Shown here: positions 1 through 28,479 of the stretch, piece after piece
Numbering within the stretch: position 1 is the first letter of the stretch
How the letters are laid out: the number at the start of each line of letters is the position of its first letter
Source: a virus
Virus record (IMG/VR): IMGVR_UViG_3300042516_000958
Location: 1 to 28,479 of that record
DNA length: 28,479 bases
Strand: one strand, 5' to 3'
Made by a program: the position numbers and the translations under genes
Notes under the pieces: model-generated
What the model was told of the DNA's origin: nothing
The model's input: only the letters and a program-made list of their open reading frames with translations
Database searches by the model: none

Positions 1-1
1 C

Positions 2-244
2 AAAGAAAGTGAATTAGAACTAAAATATGGAGTAAATAAAGATAAGATAGTTCGTGATTTAATTGATATGATTGACGAATGTAAAACACAGACATCAACA
101 GATAGACAGAATTGGTTAAAAGGACTAGATATGTTGAATAAGATGTTTGGATATTATACCCCCGAAAAACACGAACATAAACACGAGGGTATTGTAATAA
201 ATATACTAAAACCAAAAAAGGATGATGAAAGTATTGAGGAATAA
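2..244 (+). CDS. Terminase small subunit-like protein, 3' part only
   Basis: An open frame enters from the left edge and stops at TAA 242-244, giving about 80 residues. It is polar and helical-looking, with the stretch DRQNWLKGLDMLNKMFGYY followed by a His/Glu/Lys-rich tail. This pattern is like the C-terminal part of small terminase subunits, which bind phage DNA and hand it to the large subunit. The main argument is position: it lies in the same direction just before the large terminase, with one small gene between. The DNA-binding N-terminus is outside the window, so the assignment is an inference. The next gene starts 23 bases before this stop. Confidence 0.5.
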   Translation, partial: KESELELKYGVNKDKIVRDLIDMIDECKTQTSTDRQNWLKGLDMLNKMFGYYTPEKHEHKHEGIVINILKPKKDDESIEE

Positions 245-632
245 TGAGGATTATGAATTTTTATTGGGGGAAAGTGCCCTTGATTTATTCTACTACTACC
301 AAGTAGAAGAACTACACGGGTTGAATATAGACGATTGTAGGAAACGAATAGAAGAAGGTGGGACATATATTGATGGTATGTGTAATTACATCCCTGTTAT
401 GGACTATACAATAGATTATTCAAAGTTCTTTATCTTTATAAATTTAAGTTCGTTAGATGGTTCATATAAAGATATAACACTGGTTCAACACGAAACTACA
501 CACGGGGGATTTAAGATGTATGATTACAACCCCAATAGAGAAGAAGAAATTATAAGTTGGGGTGAAGAACTTACAAATGAAATAATGCCACAGATTTTTA
601 GAGAAGTAAATATAAGACGATATGGAAATTAA
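222..632 (+). CDS. Small HExxH protein, possible zinc metallopeptidase
   Basis: 136 residues. Residues 90-94 read HETTH, a perfect HExxH zinc-binding signature, preceded by a hydrophobic strand and the segment DITLVQ. About 13-20 residues later comes an acidic helix (REEEIISWGEELTNEIMP, 106-123) that could supply a third, glutamate ligand, as in gluzincins. The spacing and the closing 'E..I..W..EL..EIMP' resemble ImmA/IrrE-type (M78) peptidases, but the rest of the protein does not look like them. The gene sits between the two terminase subunits, overlapping the upstream gene by 23 bases and the large terminase by 11, so it is probably translated with them. A second ATG at 225 is an equally good start. 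HExxH occurs by chance, so enzyme activity is unproven. Confidence 0.55.
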   Translation: MMKVLRNNEDYEFLLGESALDLFYYYQVEELHGLNIDDCRKRIEEGGTYIDGMCNYIPVMDYTIDYSKFFIFINLSSLDGSYKDITLVQHETTHGGFKMYDYNPNREEEIISWGEELTNEIMPQIFREVNIRRYGN

Positions 633-1935
633 CTTTACCCCATCCTTAAAACAAGATTTGATATTTGAATACTTTGATGATGTTGATACGACAGAAGTAT
701 TATATGGGGGTGCTGCGGCAGGTGGTAAATCATATGGTTCGTGTGCCTTCACGATAATTAAATGTCTTCAATATCCTGGTATTAGAGTAGGTTTATGTAG
801 GAATGAATTAACTACATTAAAGAAGACAACGATAGTGTCCCTAATGGAAGTATTAAGTGATTGGGGATTAAAGACAGATGAACACTATAAGTATAATTCA
901 ACCACAGGTGAAATCACATTTGAAAATGGTTCAAAGATAATTTGTCTTGAATTAAGATATTTACCATCCGACCCGAACTATACCCGTCTTGGGGGACAAC
1001 TACTGACTTTTGGGATTATAGATGAGGCAGGTGAAGTAGATGAAAAGGGAAAACAAATACTCCAATCAAGGTTGGGTAGATGGATGAATGTAGAAACGGG
1101 GGTAAAACCATTTTTACTTATGACTTGTAACCCCTCTAAAAACTTCCTTTATAGGGACTTTTATTTACCGAGTAGTGATAATACCTTACCGACACATAGA
1201 AAGTTCATACAATCCCTTGTATTAGACAACCCATTCATCAACGATGTGTATGTAAATAACCTACATAAGTCATTATCCAACCAAGATAAGGAAAGATTGA
1301 TAAATGGGAATTGGGATTATGATGACGACCCAAATTGTCTAATGGAATATCCAACGATTATGAATATTTTTATAGATAAAAAACCTATTGTGGAAAAACC
1401 AAAGACATACATATCTGCCGATATTGCCTTCACAAGTGATAATGCCGTCATAATGGTATGGGAAGATTTAACACTGGTAGAGATAATTGTTAATCCTGAA
1501 GGTATTATTGAAGATGTAATTAGGGATAAGGCAAAAGAATATAAAGTATTCCCCAATAATATCAGTTATGATAGTGATGGTGTGGGTAAGTATTTGATGA
1601 ATTACCTTAAATCTGCCAAACCAATAGTCAATAACGGGAAACCATTAAGAGATGAAAACTATGAAAACCTTAAAACCCAATTATATTTCAAGTTGGGGGA
1701 AGTTGTAAATAGTGGTGAATTAAAAGTGTTGAAGTCCAAGTATGATGATAAGATAATTGAGGAACTACAACAGGTAAAACACAAACCAAGTGATAGGGTT
1801 GGAAAGATTGGGATGGTTAATAAGGGGGATGTTAAAAGGATGTTGGGTCGTTCCCCCGATTTTAGTGATGCGATGGCATATAGAATGATATTTGAAATAA
1901 AGGTGGGGACAACAAAGACATTTAGATTTATGTAA
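622..1935 (+). CDS. terL: Terminase large subunit (DNA packaging ATPase/nuclease)
   Basis: 437 residues, normal length for the family. The N-terminal ATPase has a Walker A-like loop GGAAAGGKS (29-37), a Walker B IIDEA (132-136) and a coupling motif TCNPS (168-172). The C-terminal RNase H-like nuclease shows its acidic residues in SADIAF (D267), the YDSDG segment (D317/D319) and SPDFSDAMAY (D413, D416). Together these power DNA translocation into the prohead and cut the concatemer at the portal. The start ATG at 622 overlaps the end of the HExxH gene by 11 bases. The portal gene, normally a close neighbour, lies 16.6 kb downstream here. Confidence 0.95.
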   Translation: MEINFTPSLKQDLIFEYFDDVDTTEVLYGGAAAGGKSYGSCAFTIIKCLQYPGIRVGLCRNELTTLKKTTIVSLMEVLSDWGLKTDEHYKYNSTTGEITFENGSKIICLELRYLPSDPNYTRLGGQLLTFGIIDEAGEVDEKGKQILQSRLGRWMNVETGVKPFLLMTCNPSKNFLYRDFYLPSSDNTLPTHRKFIQSLVLDNPFINDVYVNNLHKSLSNQDKERLINGNWDYDDDPNCLMEYPTIMNIFIDKKPIVEKPKTYISADIAFTSDNAVIMVWEDLTLVEIIVNPEGIIEDVIRDKAKEYKVFPNNISYDSDGVGKYLMNYLKSAKPIVNNGKPLRDENYENLKTQLYFKLGEVVNSGELKVLKSKYDDKIIEELQQVKHKPSDRVGKIGMVNKGDVKRMLGRSPDFSDAMAYRMIFEIKVGTTKTFRFM

Positions 1936-1950
1936 AAACACCCTAACAAA

Positions 1951-1962
1951 AAATATATTTAT
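1951..1962 (+). promoter_or_regulatory. AATATATTTAT motif before the tail chaperone gene
   Basis: The 59-base gap after the terminase stop holds an A-run followed by ATATTTAT (1955-1962), 32 bases before the next ATG. The same A-rich plus ATATTTA arrangement recurs before several other structural genes. It may be the -10-like part of a phage promoter, but no matching upstream box is seen here. Confidence 0.4.
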
Positions 1963-1994
1963 AATAAAAAATAATAATTTAAAACAAAAAGGAA

Positions 1995-6768: not shown

Positions 6769-9700
6769 ATGAATAAATTTGAAGTAGTTGCGAACGGAAT
6801 AACATTAGATACATATGATAATATTGGGGTTAGTATCAATTATCAAATTGAGGATATTTTAAACATCACAAAACGAACCACCAATTTTAGTAAGACAATT
6901 ACATTACCAGGAACCCCTGATAATAATAAATTCTTCAAACAGATTTTTGATGTAAATATAGACACAATAACCTTTAACCCAAAAGTTGCCATACCATCAG
7001 TTATTCGTGTTGGTAATCAAGAGGTAATGAATGGGGTGATGATGTTATTAAATATAAACATAAATCAAAAACAGGTTGATTATGAAGTATGTATATTTGG
7101 TAGATTAAAAAATATTATCCAAGAATGGGGGGATTATACATTAAGAAATATTGATTTAAGTGAATATAACCATCTTCGTTCAATAGAAAACATTACAGAT
7201 AGTTGGGAATATACAATTCAAAAGTTTGGAAGTCCAACATCAAATTTTAATACAGGTGAAGGTTATGTGTATCCATATATCATTTATGGTAATCACACAG
7301 ACATTAACAATCGTATGTATGCGAGTTTAATGGCACCATCCGTATATCTTAAAACAATTATAGATAAATCATTTCAATTGGCAGGTTATACCTACACATC
7401 TAATTTTTTTAATAGTGAATATTTCAAAAAACTTATTATACCATTTGTCCAAGATAAATTACAGATGGACGCAGAAGAAGTTAATAAACGAACTACAAGG
7501 GTTGGTTTATTACCATACACAAATCCAACAACAACTCGTCCCTTATTATATGGTAATTCCCCAAACAATTCTTGGTTATATTCATATAATAACCCAAACC
7601 CTACAGAATTTAGGGCAATATCACCTGTATTAGCAGATAGTAGTGGTAATGATAATACTTGGTTTAAGAATTATGAATATAGTAGGGGGTATTATTTTCC
7701 ATTAGAAAAAGAAACAGGACAAGTTGGGGATTTAGATTTACAAGATTTAGATAATCAGTGGTTTGTATCTGCCCCCACACAGACAACTAATTCAGGTGGT
7801 TTTACATATTATCAAAATAAGAATGCAGGATTTTATGATATATCCCTTGATTGTGAATTTTATATGTATTATATCCATAATGGGGGTGAAGATTTAGATT
7901 ATAAAAGTGGTGATATAAGATACTTCGGTAGATTAGTTTTAGAAAGAACTGATGGAACTTCAACTATTATACAACAAACAGATTTTCCACATATCTTTAC
8001 ACCAAGTGATGGTGTTTATAACTCTCCCTGGATTGACTATGATAAACCACTTCCACTATCTATGGCAGTATCTAACATTTATCTTGGTGTTGGGGATAGA
8101 ATTAGAATTGGGTTTGGTTTAGAATATAAAAATGTTAAATGGGTTGATGTTCAAGATATAAATGTATATTGTCAGGCAATTATGCCCGTATCGGTTGGTA
8201 GTAACTATAATAACTTTGAGGTTAAACCTGCCAATAATACACTTCAAGGACAAGACGATTACATCAATATGAACCAAATTCTTCCTGATGTTAAAATCAA
8301 AGATTTATTTGTATCAATATTGAGGATGTTTAATTGTATTGTATATGATAATCCTGAAAAACTAAATGATTTAATTATTGAACCCCGTGATGATTTTTAT
8401 TTCAGTAGAAAAAAAGTAAAGGATTGGACATATCTATTGGATTATAATACCCAAATTAAAATAACCCCTATGAGTGATGTGGATTTTAGAACATTATTAT
8501 ACACATACAAAGAAGATGGGGATTATTATAACCAATCATATACAGATGAATTTAAAAGAATATATGGTTCATACGAAATTGATGTGATAAATGATTTCAG
8601 TGAAGTAGAAAATAAAAATGAAGTATTATTTTCACCAACACCTGATGGAAGTTGGGGGATTGGAAATAGAATTGCCCCCTATTTTTGTAGTTTAGAGGAT
8701 GATATATTAAAACCTAAAAAGGTAAAACCAAGAATATTATTCTATAGTGGTTTAAAAAATTCAAGTAATACAATCACATTACTTGATTATGTAGGACAAC
8801 CAACAGGACTTGGGGAGAACATTACACAATATCCATATGTGGGGATGTGGGACGACCCAGATAATCCACAACACGACTTATCATTTGGTTTAACAGAAAA
8901 AGTATATTTCAATACAAGTTATTTCCCTGTAAATACTTTGGTTGAGGAGTTCCATAAAAATAGTATAATGGAACTTATAGACATTAATAGTAAAATGATG
9001 GAGGCATCTTTCTATCTTACACCAAAGGATATTGCGGAATTTGATTTTAGAGACATTATATTGATTGATAATAGTTATTGGAGGGTTTATAAGATTAAGG
9101 ACTTCAACCCTATTGGAAATGAAAAAGTAACCCAATGTATTTTATACAAATTAAATAATGTAAATATTTTTAATAGTGGGGTTGTTGATATAACATTTTC
9201 AAATAAATCTTGTCCTACCGATATAATCCAAAAGTTTAGTAAGAAAGGTTCATATTACATATCACAATCAGGACAGATTATTACGGAAGATTGTTGTAAT
9301 AGTTTGGGTGCGAAATGGAATAATGGTAAATGTTTTTCAGGTTTAAGGTGGGAAAATATATGGAGTAAAAACACCGATGGTTCCGTAGTAAAAAATATGT
9401 TAATACAGGGTAGTCCAAATATTACCCCCAACCAAACTACGATGACTGAAAGACAAAACCAAGATGGTAATACAAACAATAGTCCTGGTGTAATTATTAG
9501 GGGACAAAGAAACTATGTAGGTGAAAATGTTAAATCATCAATTATATTGGGGGATGGTTCATCATTATTAGAAGGTTCAAAGAACCAATTGGTAATCGGT
9601 GATGGTATTACCCCAACCGAATGTAATTCAATCACCATAGGTAGTTTAGTGATTACTGAAGACGGATTTAAACAGACAACCCCAACAATTATTGATGGTG

Positions 9701-11329: not shown

Positions 11330-14143
11330 ATGGCACAAACGGCACAGATAAATATTAAGGTTGATGGAAAACAGGCAGAGGGTAGTGTTAATTCATTAAA
11401 CCAATCAATACAAGGGGCAACCAAAAATACTACATCATTAAGAACCGAATTAAGACAGGTTACCCAAGAATTACAACAATTAGAACCTGGTAGTAAAAGA
11501 TTTGATGAACTATCCCAAAGGGCAGGACAATTAAGGGACACGATACAAGATACGAGTGCCGTTATTAACGCAACTGCGGGTTCTGCCATAGAGAATTTGG
11601 GGACAGGATTACAGGGTGTTGCCACGGTTGGTATTGGTGCGTTTCAAGGTGTAACTGCTGCCGCAACCCTATTTGGAAATGAAAATGAAAATCTACAAAA
11701 ACAATTAGTTAAATTACAGGCAGCAGCAAACCTTGCTCAGGCAATCAATACCTTTGGTTCATTAGGGGATGTTGTAACCCAAGTAAGGGCATCATTTGCG
11801 GCATTCACCACCCAACTTGCGTCATCTACGGTAGTTACAAAAATCTATAATTTTGTAATGAATGAAACTACGGTTGCCCAAGTTAAGGAAACAATATCTA
11901 CAACCGCAGGGACAATTGCGAAGGGGGTTCAAACTGCCGCAACTTGGTTATTAGTTGCTGCCAAAAAGGCACTAACAACATCCACCTTTACTGCCGCAAA
12001 TGCGATGAGGGTTTTAAAGGGGGCAATCGTTGCGACAGGTATTGGGGCATTAGTAGTTATACTTGGTGAGTGTATTAGTTTGTTAATGGATATGGGAAGT
12101 GAAACTGAAAATGCCGCAGACAAACAAGAAAAGATGGCACAGGCAGCAGAAAAAACCCGTCAAAAACTTCAAGATGCTGCCTCAGCAGCAAGGGACTTAA
12201 ATGCGGCATCCACAGGTGGTTTAAATGACTTGGAAAGACAATTAAAAGTAATGACTGCGAGAGGGGCAAATTATAATGCCATTTATGAAAAAACAATTGA
12301 AATTAAAAATGAAGAATTAAAATTACTTCAAGAACAGGCATTTCAGGAGGGTATTAATACAAATGAAGAACTTAAAAACTTAAAAGGTAAAAAATTAGAA
12401 AGGGCAATATATTATAGAGAAACACGACAAAATATAATGACTGAAATGGAAATGTCGTCAATCGCAAGAAGTAATGCCGCAAAGGAAGAAGAGGAAGAAC
12501 GAAAAAGGGCGGCACAGGATGCTGCCAACAAATCAAAACAATTGGCAGACGAACGAAAAAGAGAGGCAGAAGCAGCAGAAAGGGACAGACAAGACAAAAG
12601 AAAAAAAGAATTAGATATATTCAACGAACGACTACAAAGAGAGAAAGATGCCAATAAAGAATTAAGGAAACTATCTGTTGATGAAATGGTTACCACCGAA
12701 CAGGTTGGGGATGTTAAAATATCATCTATTACCAAAATTACTGAAAAAGAACAGGAGTTAATGAAGTTAAAAATAGAAATGGATGAATTTGAAGAAAATT
12801 TAATTCAAAAAGGTATTCAACGAACAATACAGGCAGAGGAAGAAAAATGGATTAAGAGTAAAAAACCTATTGAAGATTTTGCCAAAGTTAGGGAACAAAT
12901 AGAAAAAGATGGTATAAATAATTTATTACCTGTGGAACTTGAATTACTTGAAAAGAAAAAGAAACTTTACGAACAAGATACAGAAAATAGAAGAAAAGAA
13001 TTTGAAAGATTAAAACAATTATCAATACAAACTGCGGAAAAAATTGCGTATGATACTGCGATTGCCCAAATGGAATTTGATAAACAACAAGAAATAAGAC
13101 AAGTTAATCAAAGTAAAAAAAGTGAATTAAAGAAACAAGAAGAAATATTTAAAATTAGACAAGAATATGTTGATGCCCAAGTTTCCCAACTTCAACAATC
13201 GGAGGAAATACAACAAGAGATTTTATATCAAGAATATTTAAATGCGGTTAAAATTGCTGAAGAAAAGGGGGAAGATACAACACAAATAGATAGTAAATAT
13301 CAAAATGATAGATTTAATCTACATAAAGATACAACTGAAAAAATACAAAACTTGGAAGATGCGGCAAGAGAAGAAAGGGATGCTAAAGTATTGGCACAGG
13401 CAGAACAACTTGCTCAAGAACTTGATAAGTATTTTCAAATGGTTAGTGGATTGGGGAATGCCCTTAATGAATTGGCGGCGGTTCAAACACAAAATAGATT
13501 AAATCAAATTGATAGTGAATACAACCACGAGGAAGAAAGATTAAAAATGTTGTATGATAGTAAAGTAATAAGTGAAGAAGAATTTAACGATAAGAAAAGG
13601 GCATTGGACTTCCAAAGAAGTGAAGATGAATTAAAATTAAAAAGACAACAATTCAAAAGAGAAAAAAGTATGAATATCATACAGGCAACTATGGATACTG
13701 CCCTTTCAATTTTATCTGCGATGAAGACATTTGGACCCCCACCATCACCATTAGGTATTATTGCGATGGCAGTTGCTGCGGCAGTAGGTGGAATACAGAT
13801 TGCCACAATATCTTCACAACAATTTAGTGCGGCAAGAGGGGGGATTGTTCCTGATAATGGAAAACCAAGTGATGTTGATAGTGTCCCATCTATGTTGGCA
13901 CCAGGTGAGGCAGTAATTAACTCCCGTTCAACAGAGATGTTCCCACAAACTTTATCACTTATCAATCAGGCAGGTGGTGGTATTCCCCTTGTTCCTGAAA
14001 TGATACAACAAGGTTCATCAGGTAGTGGGATGATATTTGGGGAAAATCAACCACAACAATCTATTAGGGCATATGTAGTAGAAACAGAAATAACTGACAC
14101 CCAAAGAAGAATTGATAGGATACAAAGGGCAGTTGAATTTTAA
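11330..14143 (+). CDS. Tape measure protein
   Basis: 937 residues, the signature long helical tail protein that sets tail length. Residues 20-75 start with coiled-coil helices, 85-220 are Ala/Thr-rich, and 229-256 form a hydrophobic, probably membrane-inserting segment (GAIVATGIGALVVILGECIS). Residues 260-760 are long charged coiled coils rich in Glu, Lys, Gln and Arg. The C-terminus has a second Ala/Gly-rich hydrophobic stretch (about 780-820) and the usual closing turn ARGGIVPDNGKPSDVDSVPS then LAPGEAVINSRS. The length implies a long tail, most likely a siphovirus since no sheath gene is seen, although the window may not be the whole genome. Confidence 0.9.
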   Translation: MAQTAQINIKVDGKQAEGSVNSLNQSIQGATKNTTSLRTELRQVTQELQQLEPGSKRFDELSQRAGQLRDTIQDTSAVINATAGSAIENLGTGLQGVATVGIGAFQGVTAAATLFGNENENLQKQLVKLQAAANLAQAINTFGSLGDVVTQVRASFAAFTTQLASSTVVTKIYNFVMNETTVAQVKETISTTAGTIAKGVQTAATWLLVAAKKALTTSTFTAANAMRVLKGAIVATGIGALVVILGECISLLMDMGSETENAADKQEKMAQAAEKTRQKLQDAASAARDLNAASTGGLNDLERQLKVMTARGANYNAIYEKTIEIKNEELKLLQEQAFQEGINTNEELKNLKGKKLERAIYYRETRQNIMTEMEMSSIARSNAAKEEEEERKRAAQDAANKSKQLADERKREAEAAERDRQDKRKKELDIFNERLQREKDANKELRKLSVDEMVTTEQVGDVKISSITKITEKEQELMKLKIEMDEFEENLIQKGIQRTIQAEEEKWIKSKKPIEDFAKVREQIEKDGINNLLPVELELLEKKKKLYEQDTENRRKEFERLKQLSIQTAEKIAYDTAIAQMEFDKQQEIRQVNQSKKSELKKQEEIFKIRQEYVDAQVSQLQQSEEIQQEILYQEYLNAVKIAEEKGEDTTQIDSKYQNDRFNLHKDTTEKIQNLEDAAREERDAKVLAQAEQLAQELDKYFQMVSGLGNALNELAAVQTQNRLNQIDSEYNHEEERLKMLYDSKVISEEEFNDKKRALDFQRSEDELKLKRQQFKREKSMNIIQATMDTALSILSAMKTFGPPPSPLGIIAMAVAAAVGGIQIATISSQQFSAARGGIVPDNGKPSDVDSVPSMLAPGEAVINSRSTEMFPQTLSLINQAGGGIPLVPEMIQQGSSGSGMIFGENQPQQSIRAYVVETEITDTQRRIDRIQRAVEF

Positions 14144-14179: not shown

Positions 14180-15121
14180 ATGGAAAAATTACCAGTATAT
14201 TATTTGGAGATAGACGAATTTGATATGAAATCGGGGATGGATGCCATCAGTTTTGTAACAGAACCTGCCACCCAATTAGAATGGAATATGTTTAGTGTAA
14301 TGACTGATACATATAATGACTATCCCAAATCTGCGAGTGAAAATGCCTGTAGGGCATTAAAATACAGAGATAAAGAAAATCCTGATTGTGGAACACCTGT
14401 TGGATGGAAGAGGGCAAACCAACTTTGTAACAGAGATAAAATAAGTGTTGATACAATCGGTAGGATGGGTTCGTTTAAACGACACCAACAACACAAGGAT
14501 GTCCCCTATGATGAAGGATGTGGTGGATTGATGTGGGATGCGTGGGGAGGAACCGAAGGTGTTGAATGGGCAATCCGTAAAATGGAATGGGTTAATCACA
14601 ATATGTGGAATAACAATATGTCCAAAGTAGAGTTTAAATCAAACGATGAAAAACAGATTATAACTGCCCCCGTTATGTTGGCAGAAACCCCCATATTAAG
14701 ATTTAATCCTTCTATTGGAAGATACTATGTAAAGTTTAGTGAAGACACCATCTTAAAGATGATGAAAAAATACTTCAAGGATAATAAAATACATAGAGTA
14801 AATGAAGAACACGACCCGACAAGGGTTGCTAATGGTGTGTATATGATAGAAAGTTTTATCGTGGGGGATAGAACAACAAGTGAATTATACCCTGATTTAC
14901 CAAAAGGTAGTTGGGTTGCGTCGTTCTATATTGAAGATAAAGAGTATTGGAATAAAATAAAACAGGAAGGTTTCACAGGATTTTCATTAGAAGGTTTCTT
15001 TGAAGAACAATATGAAATGGAAATGATTAACAAAGTATTCAACTCTGTTAAGAATATAGTATTTTCCAACCTACCTGATGAAGATAAAGAAGAACAAATT
15101 AAAAGAATATTAGGTTTATGA
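14180..15121 (+). CDS. XkdF-like prohead protease with inserted domain
   Basis: 313 residues. The protease core is residues 160-280: H211 in NEEHDP, the strand GVYMIESFIV, LPKGSWVASFYIED and the segment GFTGFSLEG, where S269 is the likely nucleophile. This is the XkdF-type serine protease pattern used to cleave scaffold during capsid maturation. Residues 45-140 hold a separate domain with Cys57, Cys70, Cys83, Cys114 and a Trp-rich end (WDAWGGTEGVEWAIRKMEWV); I have seen such an insert in other phage proteases but its role is unknown. The gene stops in ATGA overlap with the holin-like gene and sits upstream of scaffold and capsid, as expected. Confidence 0.8.
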   Translation: MEKLPVYYLEIDEFDMKSGMDAISFVTEPATQLEWNMFSVMTDTYNDYPKSASENACRALKYRDKENPDCGTPVGWKRANQLCNRDKISVDTIGRMGSFKRHQQHKDVPYDEGCGGLMWDAWGGTEGVEWAIRKMEWVNHNMWNNNMSKVEFKSNDEKQIITAPVMLAETPILRFNPSIGRYYVKFSEDTILKMMKKYFKDNKIHRVNEEHDPTRVANGVYMIESFIVGDRTTSELYPDLPKGSWVASFYIEDKEYWNKIKQEGFTGFSLEGFFEEQYEMEMINKVFNSVKNIVFSNLPDEDKEEQIKRILGL

Positions 15122-16445: not shown

Positions 16446-17387
16446 ATGAGTTTAAATGTAGCAGGATTAACGGCATATGTTGATGAAAACAAAATGGCAT
16501 TAATCAAAAAAGCAGTATTAGGTGGTAGAACTTTGAGGTATATTTCAGTTCAACCTGACATCAAGTCAAGTGCCACTATTAACATTATCAATTCCAACCT
16601 TGTTGCTCAGGCAGGTGGTTGTGGTTGGAGTGAAAACGGGACAACAATTTTGACCCAACAAACATTATCGGTATGTCCGTTAAAAGTAAATGAGGCAATC
16701 TGTCTTGATACTTTGGAAACTTACTACACACAAAAGATGATGCAACCAGGTTCTTATAATGAGAACATCCCATTTGAGGAAATCTTCGCATCAGAGAAGG
16801 CAGACAAAATCAATGCCCTTATTGATGACTTAATTTGGAAAGGGAACACATCAACAGGTTCAGGTAATCTTGCGTTATGTAATGGTTTCATCAGATTGGC
16901 AGGACAAACATTTTCAGGTTCAGTAGTAACTGGTAATGTTAATGTTGTTACGGCAATCACTTCTTCTAACATCATAGACATCGTTGATGGTATGTCTTCT
17001 GTAGTCCCTACGGATATTTTAGATATGGATGACTTACACTTATTCTGTGGGTATGACTTCTATAGAACTTATGCGTTGGCATTAAGAAATGCTAATCTAT
17101 TCCACTACACAGGTGCGGAAAATCAAGGTGAAGATTATTCACAAATGATACCAGGAACAAACATTAGAATTGTGGCATTAAGAGGTTTGAATGGAACTAA
17201 CAGAGCATTCTTATCATCTGCGTCTAACCTATACTTTGGAACTGACTTATTGAGTGATGCGGAAGATTTCCAAATCTTCTACTCTGCGGATTTTGATGAG
17301 GTAAGATTTAGAAGTAAGTGGAAACAAGGTGTTCAATTTGCGTTCCCTGAATTTGTGGTATATTTCAAAATCGGTTCAGGTATTTAA
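16446..17387 (+). CDS. Major capsid protein
   Basis: 313 residues directly after the scaffold and followed by a terminator. The middle has FEEIFASEKADKINALIDDL and IWKGNTSTGSGNLALCNGFI, the 'long helix then W-x-G-N' arrangement of HK97-fold capsid proteins, and the C-terminus ends in strands FRSKWKQGVQFAFPEFVVYF. Codon use here is richer in ACC, TTC and ATC-type codons than in its neighbours, as expected for a highly expressed gene. The N-terminus is short, so the delta domain is absent or the scaffold is separate, in line with the upstream gene. Confidence 0.85.
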   Translation: MSLNVAGLTAYVDENKMALIKKAVLGGRTLRYISVQPDIKSSATINIINSNLVAQAGGCGWSENGTTILTQQTLSVCPLKVNEAICLDTLETYYTQKMMQPGSYNENIPFEEIFASEKADKINALIDDLIWKGNTSTGSGNLALCNGFIRLAGQTFSGSVVTGNVNVVTAITSSNIIDIVDGMSSVVPTDILDMDDLHLFCGYDFYRTYALALRNANLFHYTGAENQGEDYSQMIPGTNIRIVALRGLNGTNRAFLSSASNLYFGTDLLSDAEDFQIFYSADFDEVRFRSKWKQGVQFAFPEFVVYFKIGSGI

Positions 17388-18167: not shown

Positions 18168-18548
18168 ATGATTACATTATCAGGAAATCAAATAACAGAT
18201 GTGGCATTTACCCTATACGAAAAGACAACTTTATCGGGTGCCACTTATATCTTGGATTTGTATAGTAATCAAAATCACAACCACACCCTATTATGGTTAA
18301 CAGGAGACACTACAAATAACAATATGAGGTATAACTACTTCCCAATAGATTTAACCCCTTATACGGGTTCTACTTTGATTGGGGGAACATATGATTATTT
18401 TGTATGGCAAACAACAGGTTCAACCTTATCAACTACTGGTTTAACAATCAGTGATGTGGTAGAAAGTGGGTTATGTGAAATTGTATTACCAAACATCTAC
18501 ACAGGAACGACTTATAATAACCCTAAACAGGAATATACATTTGAATAA
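18168..18548 (+). CDS. Small virion-associated protein of unknown function
   Basis: 126 residues from ATG 18168. The frame can be extended to a TTG at 18123, but that codon lies in the terminator's T-tract and upstream of the promoter-like motif, so the ATG is preferred. The protein is beta-rich, with VAFTLYEKTTLSGATYILDL, a Gly-Tyr strand pair GGTYDYFVWQTTG and the end VVESGLCEIVLP. I recognise the general pattern from small structural-region proteins of related phages but know no function. It ends two bases before the portal gene. Confidence 0.6.
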   Translation: MITLSGNQITDVAFTLYEKTTLSGATYILDLYSNQNHNHTLLWLTGDTTNNNMRYNYFPIDLTPYTGSTLIGGTYDYFVWQTTGSTLSTTGLTISDVVESGLCEIVLPNIYTGTTYNNPKQEYTFE

Positions 18549-18550: not shown

Positions 18551-19927
18551 ATGGAAAATAAAAAGAATAAAATAACTATGGAGGTAGAAAATACACCTGA
18601 AACACAAACTAAACAGATATTCAAAGTATTTAACTTTGGTAAAGAGTATTTGGCACCCGAATATAAATTTGATGCGAAGGATGGTTTTATACATTGGGGA
18701 ATTGATAATCAATATCCACAATATTTACTTAACCTATACAACCATTATGGTTCCCCAACACATAAGTCCATCATCAACAAGAAGTCCCGTCTAACAACAG
18801 GATATGGATTGAGAAACATAGTTGATACACAACTTCAAAACTTCGTAGATAAGAATAAATTAGAAAAAGTATTAAGACAATGTGAAATTGACTTTGAAAT
18901 ATTCAACGGATTTTGTTTTGAAATTATATGGAATAACGAGGGGAGTGATTTTACAATTCACTATATGCCATTTACTAAAATTAGAAAGGGTATTGAAAAT
19001 AAAGAAATAGATTACCCACATTTTTGGTATTCAAAGAATTGGAACGAAATTAAAAAGGAAGAATATAAACCAACTATGATTAGAAGGTTTAACCCTGATA
19101 TTAGACAAGGGAAACAATTGTTTTATTATATTGAACCAAACCCACAACAAGACGAAATCTACCCAATCCCAAACTATTCAACTACGATTAACTGGATTGA
19201 ATTGGATTATGAAATAAGTAAGTTCCATTTGAACCAAGTTAAACAGGGGTTTGCCCCTTCATTTATACTTAACTTTTCCACAGGTATTCCATCTATTGAA
19301 GAAATGGATGAATATTACAGGGACTTTAAAAGAAATTATCAAGGTGCGGAAAATTCAGGTAAGATTATTATTACATATAGTGAAGGACAAGAACAAAAAC
19401 CTGAACTAATCCCTATCCAATTAAACGATAGTGATGAAAGATTTATTATGTTACAGGATATGGTGGAAAAAAATATTGTAATGGGACACGAAATACCCCC
19501 ACAATTAGTTATTTTAACACCAGGTAAGTTAGGTTCAACAACAGAAAGACAAGAGTTATTGGGTGAATTTCAGTCATACTATATTACAACACGACAATCA
19601 CAATTAGAAGAAGGATTTAATCGTGTATTAAATTTACTATTTAGTGAAGATATAGTATTAAAAACATACGATGAGGTTGATACAATCAAAGAAGAAGATT
19701 TGGGGGTTCAAGAGAAGGCACAGGCAGAACTAAAAGGTTCAGTTGGTGGTGTTCAAGGTATTCTACAAATACAACAATCTGTATCACAAGGATTTACCAC
19801 AATAGATAGTGGTTCGGCAATCCTTGAATTGATATATGGTATTGACCCAGTAGAGGCAAGAAGAATGTTGGGGGAACCAAAACCAGTAGAACCAACTGAT
19901 AATACAAAACAAACAATTAACGGATAA
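18551..19927 (+). CDS. Portal protein
   Basis: 458 residues. It has the portal order: an acidic N-terminus, a wing region with NKKSRLTTGYGLRN (about 75-90), a Trp/Tyr-rich central part, and a stem-crown region that contains PQLVILTPGKLGSTTERQEL (about 317-336) followed by a long helix to about 360. The C-terminus is acidic and Pro-rich (GEPKPVEPTDN). The portal forms the 12-subunit ring through which DNA is packaged. It overlaps the connector gene by one base. It is unusual that it sits downstream of the capsid gene and far from the terminase. Confidence 0.85.
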   Translation: MENKKNKITMEVENTPETQTKQIFKVFNFGKEYLAPEYKFDAKDGFIHWGIDNQYPQYLLNLYNHYGSPTHKSIINKKSRLTTGYGLRNIVDTQLQNFVDKNKLEKVLRQCEIDFEIFNGFCFEIIWNNEGSDFTIHYMPFTKIRKGIENKEIDYPHFWYSKNWNEIKKEEYKPTMIRRFNPDIRQGKQLFYYIEPNPQQDEIYPIPNYSTTINWIELDYEISKFHLNQVKQGFAPSFILNFSTGIPSIEEMDEYYRDFKRNYQGAENSGKIIITYSEGQEQKPELIPIQLNDSDERFIMLQDMVEKNIVMGHEIPPQLVILTPGKLGSTTERQELLGEFQSYYITTRQSQLEEGFNRVLNLLFSEDIVLKTYDEVDTIKEEDLGVQEKAQAELKGSVGGVQGILQIQQSVSQGFTTIDSGSAILELIYGIDPVEARRMLGEPKPVEPTDNTKQTING

Positions 19928-21555: not shown

Positions 21556-23526
21556 ATGCCAAATTTTGATTTAATTAATAATGGAGATAGTGGTTTATCA
21601 GTAAGAACCACTTTAAATGATGTAATAAACTACGTCAATACAGGGATTACAAGTGGGAGTAGTTTTACCTACATAACAGAAGACACTACACCTGGTAGTG
21701 AATTTGTAAATATATTATCACCAAGAGATGTTTATATTAGTGGTGGGACATCAGTTGAACTTGAATACTATGGTTCCCCAACAATAACAAGATACTTGAT
21801 ATTGGATGGAATGCAGAGTGCTATTTATAATGATGATTTAGTTGATAGTAGTAATTTAGTAATGGGAACTACACAAACACAAATTGATACTACAGATGGT
21901 TTAACGGGTAATAATACACAATTAACATTAGATGGTTTTGCTATCAGTATGGGGACATTTAATTCTGGTGCGACTATAAGTAGTGAATTTGTAGTTGATA
22001 TAAATGCCGATACTAAATTACAAGTAATAGATGGAACAGATAGTAGTATTGTTTCATTAATACCTACATCTATAATATCTACGGTGGATGATGGAACAAA
22101 CACATCAACACAAACAATTACATCAAATGAAGTAAATACTAATGTAACAGATGGAACAGATACATCAAGTATTGAACTAACAGAAGTAACATTAAATATT
22201 GAAGTTAATAATACATTAAAAGGGGGTCAAAGAACTTCTACAATAAGTATTAATCCAGGTGGTGTTAATGCTATAGATATGATGTCTGATGATAACGCAG
22301 GACAAACAAGTAATAGAAAACAACAATATAATAGTATTGGTGATGAAGTTAGTAATGGAACTGACACATCTTTAATAGGATTAACTACAATAGGATGGGA
22401 AATGTATAATTCCGATGGGACTTCTACAACTAATTTTAATGGTAGTAATAATAATATCACTTCTTTGATTGATAATTCTATCATATTATTTGAAGGGACA
22501 GAGGAGGCATATGGTGCTATTTTAGATGAATTAAAAGGTGAATTATATGTTATTATTCCTGATAATAGTGTAGCATCATCAGGTTTTTTTAATATATCTA
22601 ATAATATTGTTATTTATTTTACAGGTGATACTACAACCTTTATTAATATAGATATAAACCAAATTACATCAACAACACCAGGAATAGGAAATCCAGGTGG
22701 AACAACAAGATTAAGATTAAATGGTTCACAAGGTATATCAAATACTTATGTTGGTGATGGTTGTTATGTATTTACCCCCGATTTAGGTGGTGGTGGAACA
22801 GAAGTTATACCTGAAGATATTGAACCTTATACATCAAAAATTGTATTAAGTGGTGATAATATTACAATAGAAAAAATAACTAATTTAGATACATCATCAT
22901 TAGTTGTTGGTGATAATTTTGTAGATATAAATTCATCATATGGAGATACATTATCTCAATTACGAGTAGGAATGAATGGTGGAGATGGAAATAAATTTAA
23001 AACTAACGATATTAGTATTGAGGTAGGGACAGGGATTTCATTTGCACCCGACCAATCTTATCAGTGGGCAGGTGATTATGATTATACTATGACGGCATAT
23101 ACTGAAAATTATTGTTCTGGAACTGAACAATATTTATTTCAACAAAACGGAGATTATATTTCACAACTTGTCCTTGACCCCGCATCACTAAATACTGGAA
23201 CATTATTTAAGAGTGAAGATTTAGTTGTTGGTTCATCAACAATTCTATCACTTGGATATGATGGTATGGGTTCATTTGATATGACTGATGGAACAGGTAA
23301 TAGTAGTTATTTTTCATATACCCCATCAAGTTTAAATTTAGGAGTAGATGATGGTAGTAATTCAAATATCATTACATTAACATCAACTAATTTAAATATA
23401 TCAAATATACCTTCATTTGATGATGATGCTTCGGCAAGTGGTTTAACAACAGGTGATATTTACCAAACAACAGGTGGTGGGGCATCCCCACTTGATGTGG
23501 CAGGTATTCTAATGATTAAACAATAA
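21556..23526 (+). CDS. Large tail fibre/receptor-binding protein with DGT repeats
   Basis: 656 residues. Residues 150-300 carry repeats around 'DGT-(D/N)-T-S' (DGTDSS, DGTNTS, DGTDTS, NGTDTS, DGTSTT), each followed by a short hydrophobic strand, as in triple beta-helical fibre shafts; similar units (DGTGNS, DGSNSN) recur near 580-610. A Gly/Asn-rich globular part lies near 320-430. The C-terminus SFDDDASASGLTTGDIYQTT and final VAGILMIKQ form a pattern I have seen at fibre ends in this type of phage. It is the last long gene of the late block and the most likely host-recognition protein, though the 383-residue fibre is another candidate. Confidence 0.65.
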   Translation: MPNFDLINNGDSGLSVRTTLNDVINYVNTGITSGSSFTYITEDTTPGSEFVNILSPRDVYISGGTSVELEYYGSPTITRYLILDGMQSAIYNDDLVDSSNLVMGTTQTQIDTTDGLTGNNTQLTLDGFAISMGTFNSGATISSEFVVDINADTKLQVIDGTDSSIVSLIPTSIISTVDDGTNTSTQTITSNEVNTNVTDGTDTSSIELTEVTLNIEVNNTLKGGQRTSTISINPGGVNAIDMMSDDNAGQTSNRKQQYNSIGDEVSNGTDTSLIGLTTIGWEMYNSDGTSTTNFNGSNNNITSLIDNSIILFEGTEEAYGAILDELKGELYVIIPDNSVASSGFFNISNNIVIYFTGDTTTFINIDINQITSTTPGIGNPGGTTRLRLNGSQGISNTYVGDGCYVFTPDLGGGGTEVIPEDIEPYTSKIVLSGDNITIEKITNLDTSSLVVGDNFVDINSSYGDTLSQLRVGMNGGDGNKFKTNDISIEVGTGISFAPDQSYQWAGDYDYTMTAYTENYCSGTEQYLFQQNGDYISQLVLDPASLNTGTLFKSEDLVVGSSTILSLGYDGMGSFDMTDGTGNSSYFSYTPSSLNLGVDDGSNSNIITLTSTNLNISNIPSFDDDASASGLTTGDIYQTTGGGASPLDVAGILMIKQ

Positions 23527-23927
23527 TGAATAAATATTTAGATTATACGGACGATATTTGGACACCAATATATTTAGATGTAAATAAAATTGAACCCCAT
23601 ACTTTGTGGGGTTCTGTTTTATATTTAGGTATGGGTTCATCTTTAATCCCCCGACTTCAAAGTGATAAGGTTACTAAAACAACAATCGTTGAAATTGATG
23701 AGGGAACTATACAATACAATAAGGATAATAATTTACTTCAACCTGAATGGGTTATTTACTTGGATGATGTATTTACATTTAAACCCCTTGATACTTATGA
23801 TTTTATCTTTATTGATATATTCTATAAATCAACTACTAAAAGTGTGATGGAGGGGTTAATTAATAGATATAAACCATTTTTAAATGATGATGGTAAAATC
23901 TTCTATTTACAATCAGTTGTTAAATAA
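23526..23927 (+). CDS. SAM methyltransferase/spermidine synthase-like Rossmann protein
   Basis: 133 residues. Motif I is LYLGMGSSLIP (32-42), followed by TTIVEIDEGTIQ, whose acidic residues E56/D58 would bind the SAM ribose, and by a strand YDFIFIDIFY (91-100). The overall order is that of a small class I methyltransferase core or spermidine synthase-like domain, but it is too short for a complete enzyme with a substrate domain. It overlaps the fibre stop by one base, so it is made with it; a role in modifying the fibre or another virion protein is speculation. Confidence 0.5.
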   Translation: MNKYLDYTDDIWTPIYLDVNKIEPHTLWGSVLYLGMGSSLIPRLQSDKVTKTTIVEIDEGTIQYNKDNNLLQPEWVIYLDDVFTFKPLDTYDFIFIDIFYKSTTKSVMEGLINRYKPFLNDDGKIFYLQSVVK

Positions 23928-24612: not shown

Positions 24613-25287
24613 TTAAAGTAAAATTTCCCTAAATCTATCCATTATTTGGGGGTTGGATTTAATCTTTTTTAATAAATCTTGAACTACCAATGATGCGTTC
24701 TGTTTGGTAAAACCATTCATTTCACTTACAATAGTAAAAGTCATACCAGGAATTAAGTAATAATCAAGAAATAACATTACCTTACTATACTTCATCTTTG
24801 GGATAGTCATAAGTAAATCTTCTAATTCCTTCCTATTTATTGTTTTTTCTTCATATAAGACACTATCGTCTTCAAGTTGGAATATATCTACATTATCTAT
24901 TTCAACTATCGTTGGACGGGAATTTAATGTTTTCTGTGAAACATTCTTTGATATTGGTAATCTAATAATATCTTTATTTATATTGAAGTAATCCAAGATA
25001 CTCCATCTAATAGTTGAATTACAATATGATACAATACTTTCCCCTCGTTGAATATCAAATTTATCTATACCACGAATTAACCCCATATTACCGACAGACA
25101 CCAGTTCATCAAATTCATTTGGTGAATTAAATTTATTGGCAATAAAAATTACCATAGGTAAAAGGGATTTGATTACCTCATCCCTTCTACCATCTTTTAA
25201 CATAGTAATTAAAGTATCATTATCGTATTTGGTATAACCTTTGGATATGTCTTTTTTGTATTGTCTAATAGATTTATTATTTTTCAT
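24613..25287 (-). CDS. Sigma-70-like RNA polymerase factor
   Basis: 224 residues. Region 2 is clear at about 40-102: MVIFIANKF, EFDELVSVGNMGLIRGIDKF, DIQRGESIVSYCNSTIRWSI, which is the core-binding and -10 recognition helix pair of sigma-70 proteins. Residues 105-125 (RLPISKNVSQKT) match the link to region 3. Region 4 is weak but a helix-turn-helix-like end is present at 170-215 (MTFTIVSEMNGFTKQNASLV). It overlaps the HNH-like gene by 11 bases and is transcribed with it. The likely role is to direct host RNA polymerase to phage promoters, perhaps including its own. Confidence 0.8.
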   Translation of the reverse strand: MKNNKSIRQYKKDISKGYTKYDNDTLITMLKDGRRDEVIKSLLPMVIFIANKFNSPNEFDELVSVGNMGLIRGIDKFDIQRGESIVSYCNSTIRWSILDYFNINKDIIRLPISKNVSQKTLNSRPTIVEIDNVDIFQLEDDSVLYEEKTINRKELEDLLMTIPKMKYSKVMLFLDYYLIPGMTFTIVSEMNGFTKQNASLVVQDLLKKIKSNPQIMDRFREILL

Positions 25288-25669
25288 CAGGTATAAATAT
25301 TAATTGATTAGTTTGTTTATCATACAAGGTATTTAAAACCTTCTTTGGATTAACCCATCTTAAATTATCTAAATCATTATTTAATTTATTACCATCAAGA
25401 TGTATCAATTTATACTTATGTATTGGATGGGGGATAAATGTTTCTGCTAATAATTTATCATAATCCAAATATTCCCCGTTGAAGAATACTTTTTTATAAC
25501 CTTTATTAAGATAAACTCTTAATATTTTATAATTATTTGTTTCAACGATAGTTCCTTCTATATTGACTATCAAACCTAAACCTGTATTAGGTATGTAATA
25601 CCAATCAAATTGGTAATAATTCATTTCTTTTTTTCTAAATTCAATTAGATTTTTCTTTGATTTCCTCAT
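25277..25669 (-). CDS. HNH-like protein (HNH_3/NUMOD type) upstream of sigma
   Basis: 130 residues. The C-terminal half has the HNH_3 layout: LLAETFIPHP (73-82), LIHLDGNKLNNDLDNLRWVN (88-107) with H90, D92, N97/N98 and N102. The usual 'H-R-L-V-A' histidine before the 'A-x-x-F-I-P' segment is replaced by Asp/Lys (YDKLLAE), so cutting activity may be weak or lost. The N-terminal half is a small strand-rich, basic domain. It overlaps the sigma gene by 11 bases, so the two are translated together. It may be a free-standing homing-type nuclease or a DNA-binding relative. Confidence 0.6.
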   Translation of the reverse strand: MRKSKKNLIEFRKKEMNYYQFDWYYIPNTGLGLIVNIEGTIVETNNYKILRVYLNKGYKKVFFNGEYLDYDKLLAETFIPHPIHKYKLIHLDGNKLNNDLDNLRWVNPKKVLNTLYDKQTNQLIFIPDEK

Positions 25670-25701
25670 TTTTAATTCCTTTTATGTTTATTGTTATATT
25701 A

Positions 25702-25728
25702 ATAAATATCTTCAAATATAGAAAAAGT
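25702..25728 (-). promoter_or_regulatory. Two-part promoter of the HNH-sigma operon
   Basis: Minus strand: ACTTTTTC, 11 bases, ATATTTAT, TAATATAAC, then the ATG 32 bases later with AAAGGA about 10 bases before it. Same boxes and spacer length as 24551, 25999 and 26070. Confidence 0.7.
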
Positions 25729-25739
25729 TAATTTTTTTA

Positions 25740-25998: not shown

Positions 25999-26025
25999 AT
26001 AAATATGCCGTAGTTTTGAAAAGTT
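25999..26025 (-). promoter_or_regulatory. Two-part promoter facing the non-coding stretch
   Basis: Minus strand: AACTTTTC, 11 bases, ATATTTAT, AAATGTAAT. It shares the spacer start AAAACT-CG with the site at 24551. It is divergent from the plus-strand promoter at 26070. No gene starts within 300 bases downstream. Confidence 0.55.
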
Positions 26026-26069
26026 CCTCCAAAGTAAAAAAAAAATAAAAAAAAAATTAAAGTAAAGTG

Positions 26070-26096
26070 TTTTTTTCCAAAGTTACAGATATTTAT
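26070..26096 (+). promoter_or_regulatory. Two-part promoter of the nuclease gene
   Basis: TTTTTTTC, 11 bases, ATATTTAT, TATAAAATAAC, then ATG 31 bases downstream with AAAGGA between. Same layout as the three minus-strand sites. Confidence 0.6.
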
Positions 26097-26127
26097 TATA
26101 AAATAACAAAGGATAAAATTTAAAATT

Positions 26128-26622
26128 ATGATTGACTTTAATAAAAAATGGGAAAACGACTTGAACGAAGGACAAAAAGGTGAAAGAGTTGTTAGTGAAT
26201 ATTTCACAAAAAGATGGGGTTTAACGGGTATTACTTTTAACGACAATAGTGATTATGACTTTATGGGTAGTAAAGACGACAGAACCATTCTATTTGAGGT
26301 AAAAACGGATAGATACGAACACTTCAAGGGGGTAAATACATACAATATGTTTATAGAAGTTTCTTGTAGTGGAAAACCAAGTGGTATTCTTACTTCAAAG
26401 GCAGAACAATTCGTATATTACTACCCTGATTTAGAAGAAATGTTTATAATCCCAATGACTGAATTAAGATTATTATGTATCTTGGAAGATTTGAAACTGA
26501 CAGAACAATCAGGAGACAAAGGTAAAACCAAAGGATACTTATTACACAGGAACTTATTTCGTGATAGATTTAAAGTATTCCAAGTTATAAAAGACACAAC
26601 GATATGGGAAGACAAGATATAA
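26128..26622 (+). CDS. PD-(D/E)xK superfamily nuclease
   Basis: 164 residues. A helix GQKGERVVSEYF with E19 precedes the catalytic core: NSDYDFMGSK (D42/D44), then LFEVKTDRY with E57-V-K59. The next segments, NMFIEVSCSGKPSGILTSKA and EQFVYYYPD, match small phage nucleases of this superfamily that I have seen, in which 'GKPSGI..(T/S)KA' is a fixed element. They cut or trim DNA, possibly Holliday junctions or host DNA; the exact substrate is not known. It is the first gene of the rightward operon after the divergent promoter region. Confidence 0.75.
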   Translation: MIDFNKKWENDLNEGQKGERVVSEYFTKRWGLTGITFNDNSDYDFMGSKDDRTILFEVKTDRYEHFKGVNTYNMFIEVSCSGKPSGILTSKAEQFVYYYPDLEEMFIIPMTELRLLCILEDLKLTEQSGDKGKTKGYLLHRNLFRDRFKVFQVIKDTTIWEDKI

Positions 26623-26640
26623 TAACGATAATAAAAATAT

Positions 26641-26658
26641 GTATTGTATTATCAATAC
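26641..26658 (+). repeat. Short inverted repeat GTATTG / CAATAC
   Basis: A 6-bp stem with loop TATTAT, in the 74-base gap between the nuclease gene and the 72-residue gene. It could be an RNA hairpin or an operator. A 31-codon ORF begins here at 26639 but overlaps the next gene and has no ribosome site, so it is not called. Confidence 0.4.
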
Positions 26659-26696
26659 TACAACTAATAATAAACACAATCTAAAAACAAAAAACG

Positions 26697-26915
26697 ATGA
26701 AAAGGAACGAAAGAATTTATGTAATGGAAGATGAAAATGGGGAACCGATAATCTGTGATTGTCAGGACTATTTAGAGTTCATCTTACGAACGATTAAGAA
26801 CACACCCAATGATATGGACTTGGGGACTAAAATAAGGAATGAATATGATACTTTAAAATTATCACTAATAATAATGTTTGGGGATAATATAGAAGACGAA
26901 ATACCATTTGACTAA
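26697..26915 (+). CDS. Small hypothetical protein
   Basis: 72 residues from ATG 26697, highly charged and acidic at the end. It starts with a basic KRNERIYVME and contains a Cys pair (ICDCQDYLEFIL). No domain recognised. It follows the nuclease and precedes two other early-type genes in one direction, with little space between, so it is probably co-transcribed with them. Confidence 0.55.
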   Translation: MKRNERIYVMEDENGEPIICDCQDYLEFILRTIKNTPNDMDLGTKIRNEYDTLKLSLIIMFGDNIEDEIPFD

Positions 26916-26937
26916 TAAACCAATAAACAAAAAAGAA

Positions 26938-27321
26938 ATGATAGAACAATTACTGGGGATTGATATAAATAACATTCAACCCCACCATTCAAAAGTTATA
27001 CAGGAGTTAATTAACTATAACACGGACTTACAACACAGATTACAAATCTATACTGAATATGAAGATATAGATGGTATTACCAAAGAAGAGTTTATCCTAA
27101 ACGAACAGGATACTCTTTATACAATCTTGGGGACGACTGCCGCATTACTTTTCGTCTATAATAGAATAGAACAATATGAGTTGAGTGCGGACTTACATAA
27201 GGAAATGAAAACATCATTCTGTTTAATTATGAATGAAATATTCCCTTCAACAAATAACGAACAAAAGTTTCACGACTTGGTGGAAAAAATGTTTGATGGT
27301 TTTAAACAAATACTACAATAA
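26938..27321 (+). CDS. Hypothetical helical protein
   Basis: 127 residues from ATG 26938. A TTG at 26908 in the same frame would add ten residues and overlap the upstream gene by eight bases; ATG starts are used almost everywhere in this window and an A-rich leader with AAAAGAA precedes 26938, so ATG is preferred. The protein looks all-helical: a first part HHSKVIQELINYNTDLQHRL, a hydrophobic helix LYTILGTTAALLFVYNRIEQ (about 60-85) and a C-terminal helix FHDLVEKMFDGFKQIL. No known family is recognised. It overlaps the next start by one base (TAATG). Confidence 0.55.
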   Translation: MIEQLLGIDINNIQPHHSKVIQELINYNTDLQHRLQIYTEYEDIDGITKEEFILNEQDTLYTILGTTAALLFVYNRIEQYELSADLHKEMKTSFCLIMNEIFPSTNNEQKFHDLVEKMFDGFKQILQ

Positions 27322-27836
27322 TGAAAATCAACGACATACTAATAGAAATCACAACAAAGGGTTCAATCTATGATGAAATAATGAATAACCTTTTATCACC
27401 AAGATTTGAATTAAAACCTGAATTGATAAGTGAAATATCATTATCCTTTTTAGAGAACAGAGAAAAGATAGAAAAGGTATATGAAATGGGGTATTTTAAA
27501 TATTACTTTATTAATACAATTAAAAACCAAGTTCATTCCAACACATCACCATTCCATAAAAATATAAGAATTAAAGATTATGATTACATACAAGATTATA
27601 CTGATATACCTAACGATGATGATATACAAGAAAAAATCTTATTTGAGGAAAGATTAGACAAAGTAAATGAAATCTATAAATCAACAAGTAAAAGTTGGTT
27701 TGAAGATAGGATGTGGGAAGAATACTTTGTAAATGGTAAGACATACAGACAGATAGAGAAAGAATACGGACTGGACCACTGCCTTGTGTTCCATAATGTA
27801 AAGAAAGTCAAACAGAAGATACAAAAACAACTATAA
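27321..27836 (+). CDS. Small sigma-like protein with C-terminal HTH
   Basis: 171 residues. The C-terminus reads FVNGKTYRQIEKEYGLDHC (about 136-154) followed by a recognition-type helix LVFHNVKKVKQKIQKQL: a sigma region 4-type helix-turn-helix. The middle (50-80) has a helix KIEKVYEMGYFKYYFINTIK and resembles a reduced region 2. I have seen such short sigma-like proteins near the early genes of related phages. The role in promoter choice is inferred. It ends the operon that begins at 26128 and is followed by a perfect terminator. Confidence 0.6.
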   Translation: MKINDILIEITTKGSIYDEIMNNLLSPRFELKPELISEISLSFLENREKIEKVYEMGYFKYYFINTIKNQVHSNTSPFHKNIRIKDYDYIQDYTDIPNDDDIQEKILFEERLDKVNEIYKSTSKSWFEDRMWEEYFVNGKTYRQIEKEYGLDHCLVFHNVKKVKQKIQKQL

Positions 27837-27840
27837 ACTT

Positions 27841-27864
27841 GGGGGATTTAATCCCCCTTTTTTT
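27841..27864 (+). terminator. Rho-independent terminator
   Basis: GGGGGAT-TTA-ATCCCCC (7-bp perfect stem, 3-base loop) followed by TTTTTTT, four bases after the stop of the sigma-like gene. It ends the nuclease-to-sigma-like operon. Confidence 0.9.
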
Positions 27865-27894
27865 ATTAAAAACCGAAACAAAAATAGGTGTTTA

Positions 27895-27902
27895 ATATTT
27901 AT
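27895..27902 (+). promoter_or_regulatory. ATATTTAT motif before the last gene
   Basis: Between the terminator at 27841 and the ATG at 27923, with AAAGGA between motif and start. The CTTTTTC box is absent at the 11-base distance. Confidence 0.4.
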
Positions 27903-27922
27903 TTATGAAAAAAGGATAAATT

Positions 27923-28479
27923 ATGGAAAAAAAAGAATTAACATATGATGATGTAGTCCGTATCACCCTGACTTTTATGTCTTGGTATGATAGATTAAAC
28001 GGGATACAAGATTATTTTATGGAAATAAAAAAAGAAAAAATCCAAGATATTAATATATCAGGACAAGAGTATCTTTTATTCAACGATTATACTATGTCCC
28101 CTATGGATATGGATATTTCAGTTGTGGAATTACAATCTGCGTTTTATAATCCAATCGTTCAGTCGGTTGCGTCAATGCCTGTGGAAAACCAAATTGGAAG
28201 ACAACTAACATTGGGGATTAAAGAAAACAAGACAGGGACTTATTTAGGATTTACAAGAATATGTAGTCCAGTATTATCTATCAAACCAAGAAACGAATTG
28301 TTTGGATTACCTGTTGATGGTAAGGATGTAAATAAATTTATGGTTAATGGAACACATATTATCCCCGTTCAACCATTTGGATACAATTACTTGGGTGGTA
28401 AATTGATTTGTCTATTAGGATTATCACACGAAGTTAGAAATATGTTCAACGATAAGTATGAGGACAAGTGTAATATTAT
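27923..28479 (+). CDS. Phage protein resembling the DruA/DUF4338 group, 3' end cut
   Basis: 185 residues are inside the window and the frame is still open at the right edge. The second half reads TYLGFTRICSPVLSIKPRNE, LFGLPVDG, MVNGTHIIPVQPFGYNYLGG and KLICLLGLSHEVRNMF. The order 'G-F-x-R-x-x-S-P-x-x-x-x-x-x-R-(N/D)' then 'N-x-x-x-I-I-P-x-Q-x-F-G-x-N-Y-L' parallels the central part of DruA/DUF4338 proteins. Related genes occur in other marine and gut phages. DruA itself is a host defence component, so a shared fold does not imply that function here. The assignment is tentative and the C-terminus is missing. Confidence 0.4.
   Translation, partial: MEKKELTYDDVVRITLTFMSWYDRLNGIQDYFMEIKKEKIQDINISGQEYLLFNDYTMSPMDMDISVVELQSAFYNPIVQSVASMPVENQIGRQLTLGIKENKTGTYLGFTRICSPVLSIKPRNELFGLPVDGKDVNKFMVNGTHIIPVQPFGYNYLGGKLICLLGLSHEVRNMFNDKYEDKCNI

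Follow-up and report, generated by a model that had tools for sequence, protein, structure and literature searches.

In the double-stranded DNA (dsDNA) phages surveyed by Rusinov et al. (PMC6286503), palindromic recognition sites of Type II restriction-modification (R-M) systems can fall to an observed/expected ratio (O/E) below 0.1; elimination was counted for 7.1% of Type II site-genome pairs, and the sites of other R-M types were almost never avoided. Here we describe such avoidance in a 28,479-bp metagenome contig, the complete record IMGVR_UViG_3300042516_000958 (the window), which is a tailed dsDNA phage, judged by its predicted genes for a terminase, a portal protein, a tape measure protein and a protease. 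A word was called eliminated by the criterion of the survey (O/E < 0.1 with >15 copies expected), although the estimator used there differs from ours. In contrast with the 7.1% of the survey, 10 of 10 testable G/C-containing palindromic tetramers and several longer motifs were gone from this one genome, and sister lineages had different lists. The window is an extreme case of an already known strategy, site avoidance; what is unusual is its breadth, its lineage-specific turnover and its protein-level cost.

Known phages counted with the same script, which form a small comparison set, had far fewer eliminated tetramers than the 10 of the window. Two were eliminated in each of Staphylococcus phage K (first 50 kb) and Anabaena phage A-4L, where GATC and GGCC were at or near zero, and in phi29 (GGCC and CGCG), while T7 had one (GATC). 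An H. pylori list of 32 sites includes most of the words avoided in the window (PMC3849833). Helicobacter pylori phages KHP30 (three eliminated; ACGT, GTAC and TCGA avoided) and 1961P (two eliminated; ACGT and GTAC avoided) differ from the window, whose terminase indicates Bacteroidota. The closest terminase matches among cultured phages (35 to 40% identity) came from Flavobacterium, Cellulophaga and Bacteroides phages, among them phage 11b (one eliminated), phi10:1 (two) and Versailles (four; 30 kb counted), respectively, and the records of all three annotate a DNA methyltransferase. The highest number at any of 73 other loci was seven.

GATC, CATG and GTAC had been reported as completely absent in a sequence-only reading of the window, with TCGA apparently missing too. 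Exact counts of the palindromic tetramers confirmed these zeros, against first-order Markov expectations of 69, 110, 80 and 36 copies, respectively, and extended the avoidance well beyond the four words. CCGG, GGCC, AGCT, CGCG and GCGC were also absent (expected counts were small for CGCG and GCGC), and ACGT, CTAG and TGCA were found one, one and four times. Together, the 12 G/C-containing palindromic tetramers accounted for 6 copies compared to ~490 expected, while the A/T-only palindromes AATT, TTAA, ATAT and TATA had O/E of 0.8 to 1.0. With the Markov expectation, GATC, CATG, GTAC, TCGA, ACGT, CTAG, TGCA, CCGG, GGCC and AGCT were eliminated. When coding sequences were shuffled with proteins and codon usage preserved, z was −10.0 for GATC, −6.7 for CATG, −11.3 for GTAC and −8.9 for TCGA, and ranged from −3 to −11 across the G/C-containing tetramer palindromes. 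GANTC, GTNNAC, AGNCT and TATATA were eliminated under the codon null. The avoided list comprises at least 16 testable motifs.

The avoidance was visible in codon choice, as the same reading had described. None of the 496 GAT codons preceded C, while GAC preceded C 16 times; CAT never preceded G, while CAC did so 10 times. The described Gly-Thr codon pattern follows from the zero count of GTAC. The gaps in word usage might stem from mutational bias or preferred codons in an AT-rich phage, since G+C is 31.5%, the GC dinucleotide is rare and Ala, Ser and Arg codon usage is unlike that of relatives. However, codon-preserving shuffles still gave z values reaching −11, and relatives of similar G+C lack the same gaps. 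Further, among tetramers in which each of the four bases occurs once, the palindromes (8 words) totaled 6 copies, while the 16 nonpalindromes averaged 40 copies each. We consider the chance that composition accounts for the pattern to be negligible, and the shifted codon usage appears to result from avoidance.

Longer motifs were scored against a codon-swap null that also excluded the twelve tetramers, which kept their loss from biasing the other expectations. In coding sequence, GANTC (0 observed versus 46 expected), AGNCT (0 versus 38), CTWAG (0 versus 29), ACWGT (0 versus 24.5) and TATATA (0 versus 24) were absent, and GTNNAC (2 versus 54.5), TCNGA (9 versus 58) and CCNNGG (2 versus 17) were strongly reduced. 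Sixteen of the 18 scored motifs had O/E of ≤0.1 in the window. A general force against short palindromes independent of restriction, arising from hairpins, cruciforms, or packaging or replication constraints, would fit the loss of 12 of 12 G/C tetramer palindromes and of several odd-length ones. However, look-alike words were undepleted: CANNTG (131 versus 117), ACNNGT (76 versus 76) and GCNGC (26 versus 27) occurred as expected, TGSCA was normal or high, CATATG was spared like the A/T palindromes, and CCWGG was only slightly low (20 versus 27). The force targets a specific word list and not palindromes in general. Since close relatives also hold GTAC, CATG, AGCT or TGCA at normal levels, contrary to what a general force predicts, we regard that explanation as highly improbable.

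A further rule concerned the GC dinucleotide, for which the null used the codon usage of relatives. Nearly all GC steps in coding sequence were flanked as TGCN or NGCA, and [ACG]GC[CGT] occurred 3 times on the plus strand compared to ~129 expected. Ser AGC (0 of 585), Gly GGC (0 of 600) and Arg CGC and CGG (0 of 292) were unused, and the Ala GCT fraction was 0.09 compared to 0.32 in relatives, with a shift to GCC and GCG. The rule may reflect a single degenerate specificity or several that overlap, but a CviJI*-like specificity (RGCN/YGCY) was ruled out by the free use of GGCA and TGCC.

Some nonpalindromic words were also examined. AGCA initially appeared to show strand-specific, Type III-like avoidance (14/88 versus 23/23 observed/expected). 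This asymmetry was set aside because the first null kept the window's own shifted codon usage; with the codon usage of relatives, AGCA was depleted on both strands (plus, 14/70; minus, 23/38). A null that preserves codon usage can be misleading when that usage is itself displaced. Likewise, the GACC/GGTC asymmetry was not retained as a separate signal, as it is mostly a by-product of GATC avoidance, which requires GAC ahead of C (16 of 19 GACC were in that phase). Weaker depletions were seen for CTC-containing words of the plus strand (e.g., CTCA, 12/52), for CCAG (48/105) and for TCTC/GAGA (56/139).

Relatives were collected from IMG/VR scans with the terminase large subunit as the marker and placed on a portal protein tree. 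Most are fragments, with genes called by a simple open reading frame (ORF) rule, and related sequences are not independent. They share 49 to 77% mean amino acid identity with the window across shared genes. Within the window's own lineage (G006, L001 and L002), the avoided list was almost fully the same. The sister of the window on the portal tree (G007; path, 0.19) avoids GATC, GANTC, TGCA, CTAG and ACNGT but keeps CATG, GTAC, TCGA, ACGT and TATATA at half the expectation or more. G002, G014 and G015 avoid GATC, GTAC, TCGA, ACGT, CTAG, CCGG, GANTC, ACNGT and GTNNAC but keep AGCT and TGCA, while L035 retains GTAC and TGCA and lacks most other motifs. Only CATG and TGCA are avoided in G011, only CATG and TCGA among 18 motifs in G009, and TGCA and TCGA in G012. 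These differences occur at similar G+C. Sixteen motifs on the 15-row portal tree required at least 35 state changes, several inner branches being weakly supported. Across lineages, O/E was ≤0.1 for 77 of the 237 combinations of lineage and candidate motif, compared to 0 of 163 combinations with control words. As a separate observation, two gut metagenome-assembled genome loci with terminase relatives (L098 and L101) had seven tetramers eliminated (ACGT, CCGG, CGCG, CTAG, GCGC, GGCC and TCGA), a GC-rich list unlike that of the window.

Two other explanations bear on these comparisons. A nuclease of the phage itself might destroy host DNA at the avoided words, which the phage would lack in order to spare itself, and the window does encode an HNH protein and a nuclease-like gene. 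However, the latter is present at 57 to 63% identity in G001, G002, G007, G010 and G013, lineages with markedly different lists, and therefore does not set the list; at least 16 motifs are also implausible for one or two enzymes. We judge self-sparing very unlikely. Since the window is known only as a metagenome contig and not from an isolate, a library or assembly artifact, such as restriction-digested DNA, was considered as well. Other sample sets yielded the same lineage and list (L001 from 3300036398; L002 and G006 from 3300020044), three contigs of sample 3300037493 (L017, L052 and L058) had 6, 0 and 8 avoided motifs, respectively, and 16 motifs go beyond any single digestion. An artifact is almost inconceivable.

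Sites were lost by sequence change at homologous positions rather than by gene loss. At residue-identical aligned positions, none of 22 GTAC sites in L035 and none of 11 in G007 were kept in the window, compared to 32 of 50 and 35 of 78 AATT sites, respectively. Sites were removed, or never allowed, via synonymous codons. Met-Gln and Met-His force TGCA, and Trp-Pro forces GGCC. In four TGCA-avoiding lineages, Met-Gln and Met-His together occurred 2 times versus 28.6 expected, while twelve other lineages had 25 versus 56 (P = 0.0016, an approximate value because the lineages are related); the remaining Met dipeptides had normal frequency. Two of the four TGCA sites left in the window are Met-Gln pairs. 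TGCA avoidance thus carries a visible protein-level cost. Trp-Pro was absent from the window (3.2 expected) but is rare throughout the family and is hence little informative.

Selection by many host Type II R-M systems is very probably the best explanation for the avoidance, its discreteness and lineage specificity, the synonymous replacement and the dipeptide cost, all of which were observed directly; the agency of host enzymes is what we infer. Restriction pressure is favored because the list is discrete and made up mostly of known Type II words (e.g., the H. pylori table in PMC3849833; correction, PMC4041143) while A/T and other gapped palindromes are spared, and because relatives of similar G+C avoid other words and losses are mainly synonymous. 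Long exposure to restriction, as originally proposed, is supported on the same grounds. Type II R-M systems would be numerous and variable across the hosts taken together, and unmodified phage DNA bearing a recognition site would be cut on entry. Variants with fewer sites would survive, so that sites would be lost one after another, mostly synonymously. Each lineage would purge the sites recognized by the systems present in its particular host population, and sister lists would come to differ. The list would then be a union over many host strains and not the repertoire of one strain.

Several points weigh against this explanation. We know of no enzyme for AGNCT, TATATA or the [ACG]GC[CGT] rule, and a literature search for an AGNCT enzyme returned nothing. 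Very many specificities would be involved. A prophage-based host search with the terminase returned only Bacteroidota genomes (40 to 43% identity, with Pedobacter at the top) and identified neither the host nor a cognate restriction enzyme; the host is probably a member of the Bacteroidota. Finally, surveys find avoidance almost only at orthodox Type II sites (PMC6286503). While palindromes dominate the avoidance in the window, the losses of AAGC (3 observed/73 expected), AGCC (0/38), AGCG (0/25) and GGTC (2/35) depart from that pattern. These nonpalindromic losses would be expected if other sequence-specific defenses (Type I, III, IIG or methylation guided) were among the agents beside Type II. 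However, Type I, III and IIG sites are rarely avoided in surveyed phages (PMC6286503), palindromes give the strongest signals, and a single degenerate palindrome would account for the losses of AGCC, AGCG and CGCC. A contribution from such defenses is therefore rather unlikely, though far from negligible.

Site absence may be the main antirestriction defense of the window, because no recognizable DNA methyltransferase of three Pfam families is present: PF01555, PF02086 and PF00145 had no match, although other families could escape these three profiles, which also counts against attributing the avoidance to restriction. A 133-amino-acid ORF resembles, by eye, S-adenosylmethionine-binding or spermidine synthase-like proteins. 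No homologue was found among the fetched relatives. It is small and without an obvious DNA methyltransferase motif, but may nevertheless have a role in modification. PF01555 methyltransferases were found in G001, G002 and G009. With two such enzymes, G009 avoids 2 motifs of 18; with one, G002 still avoids ten. The phage family seems to mix methyltransferase protection and site avoidance, and pairing of motifs with enzymes was not possible.

Features of the window and methyltransferase genes of its relatives are listed below. Two terminase genes in the related contig G001 are spaced 27,960 bp apart, and therefore the predicted genome size is about 28 kb, which suggests that the window, with ORFs running off both ends, is probably near complete. 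L006 and L013 proved to be one contig (IMGVR_UViG_3300028571_000063; 34147 bp) carrying two differing terminase genes 27,960 bp apart, with 79% and 85% identity to that of the window; it is probably an assembly join of two related strains or a concatemer-like junction.

Table 1. Coordinates of residual words and genes in the window, and of methyltransferase genes in related contigs
Feature	Sequence	Position	Strand	Remarks
Sole CTAG	Window	125-128
Terminase large subunit	Window	622-1935	+	phrog_2, E 1.2e-29; Pfam Terminase_3
Residual TGCA	Window	7824-7827		Asn-Ala codons
Tape measure	Window	11330-14143
XkdF-like protease	Window	14180-15121
Residual TGCA	Window	16741-16744		Forced by Met-Gln (ATG CAA)
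Residual GTNNAC	Window	18296-18301
Portal protein	Window	18551-19927	+	phrog_11226, E 4.4e-36
Sole ACGT	Window	21632-21635
Residual TGCA	Window	21812-21815		Forced by Met-Gln (ATG CAG)
Residual GTNNAC	Window	22724-22729
Residual TGCA	Window	23043-23046		Phe-Ala codons
133-amino-acid protein	Window	23526-23927	+	PADLOC mad2 match, weak, E 6.4e-9
Sigma factor	Window	24613-25287	−
HNH protein	Window	25277-25669	−
Family-conserved gene, nuclease-like by eye only	Window	26128-26622	+	No Pfam match; unnamed PHROG
phrog_19197-related protein	Window	27923-28477	+	Runs off window end; weak likeness to Druantia DruA DUF4338 domain
PF01555 DNA methyltransferase	G001:C1	551-1588
PF01555 DNA methyltransferase	G002:C1	4982-6145
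PF01555 DNA methyltransferases (two)	G009:C1	14716-16516

While the phages used for comparison avoid few words, this family has differing lists that are near complete in the window, with effects at the codon and protein levels. The family opens the questions of the rate at which sites disappear and return, whether a host restriction repertoire can be read from a phage genome alone, and which specificities are new. We suggest only tentatively, at somewhat less than even chance, that AGNCT, TATATA and [ACG]GC[CGT] record undiscovered R-M systems of uncultured Bacteroidota and that lineage lists could serve to assay the R-M repertoires of hosts. The genome reads as an imprint of the defenses in the bacteria that the phage had to infect.

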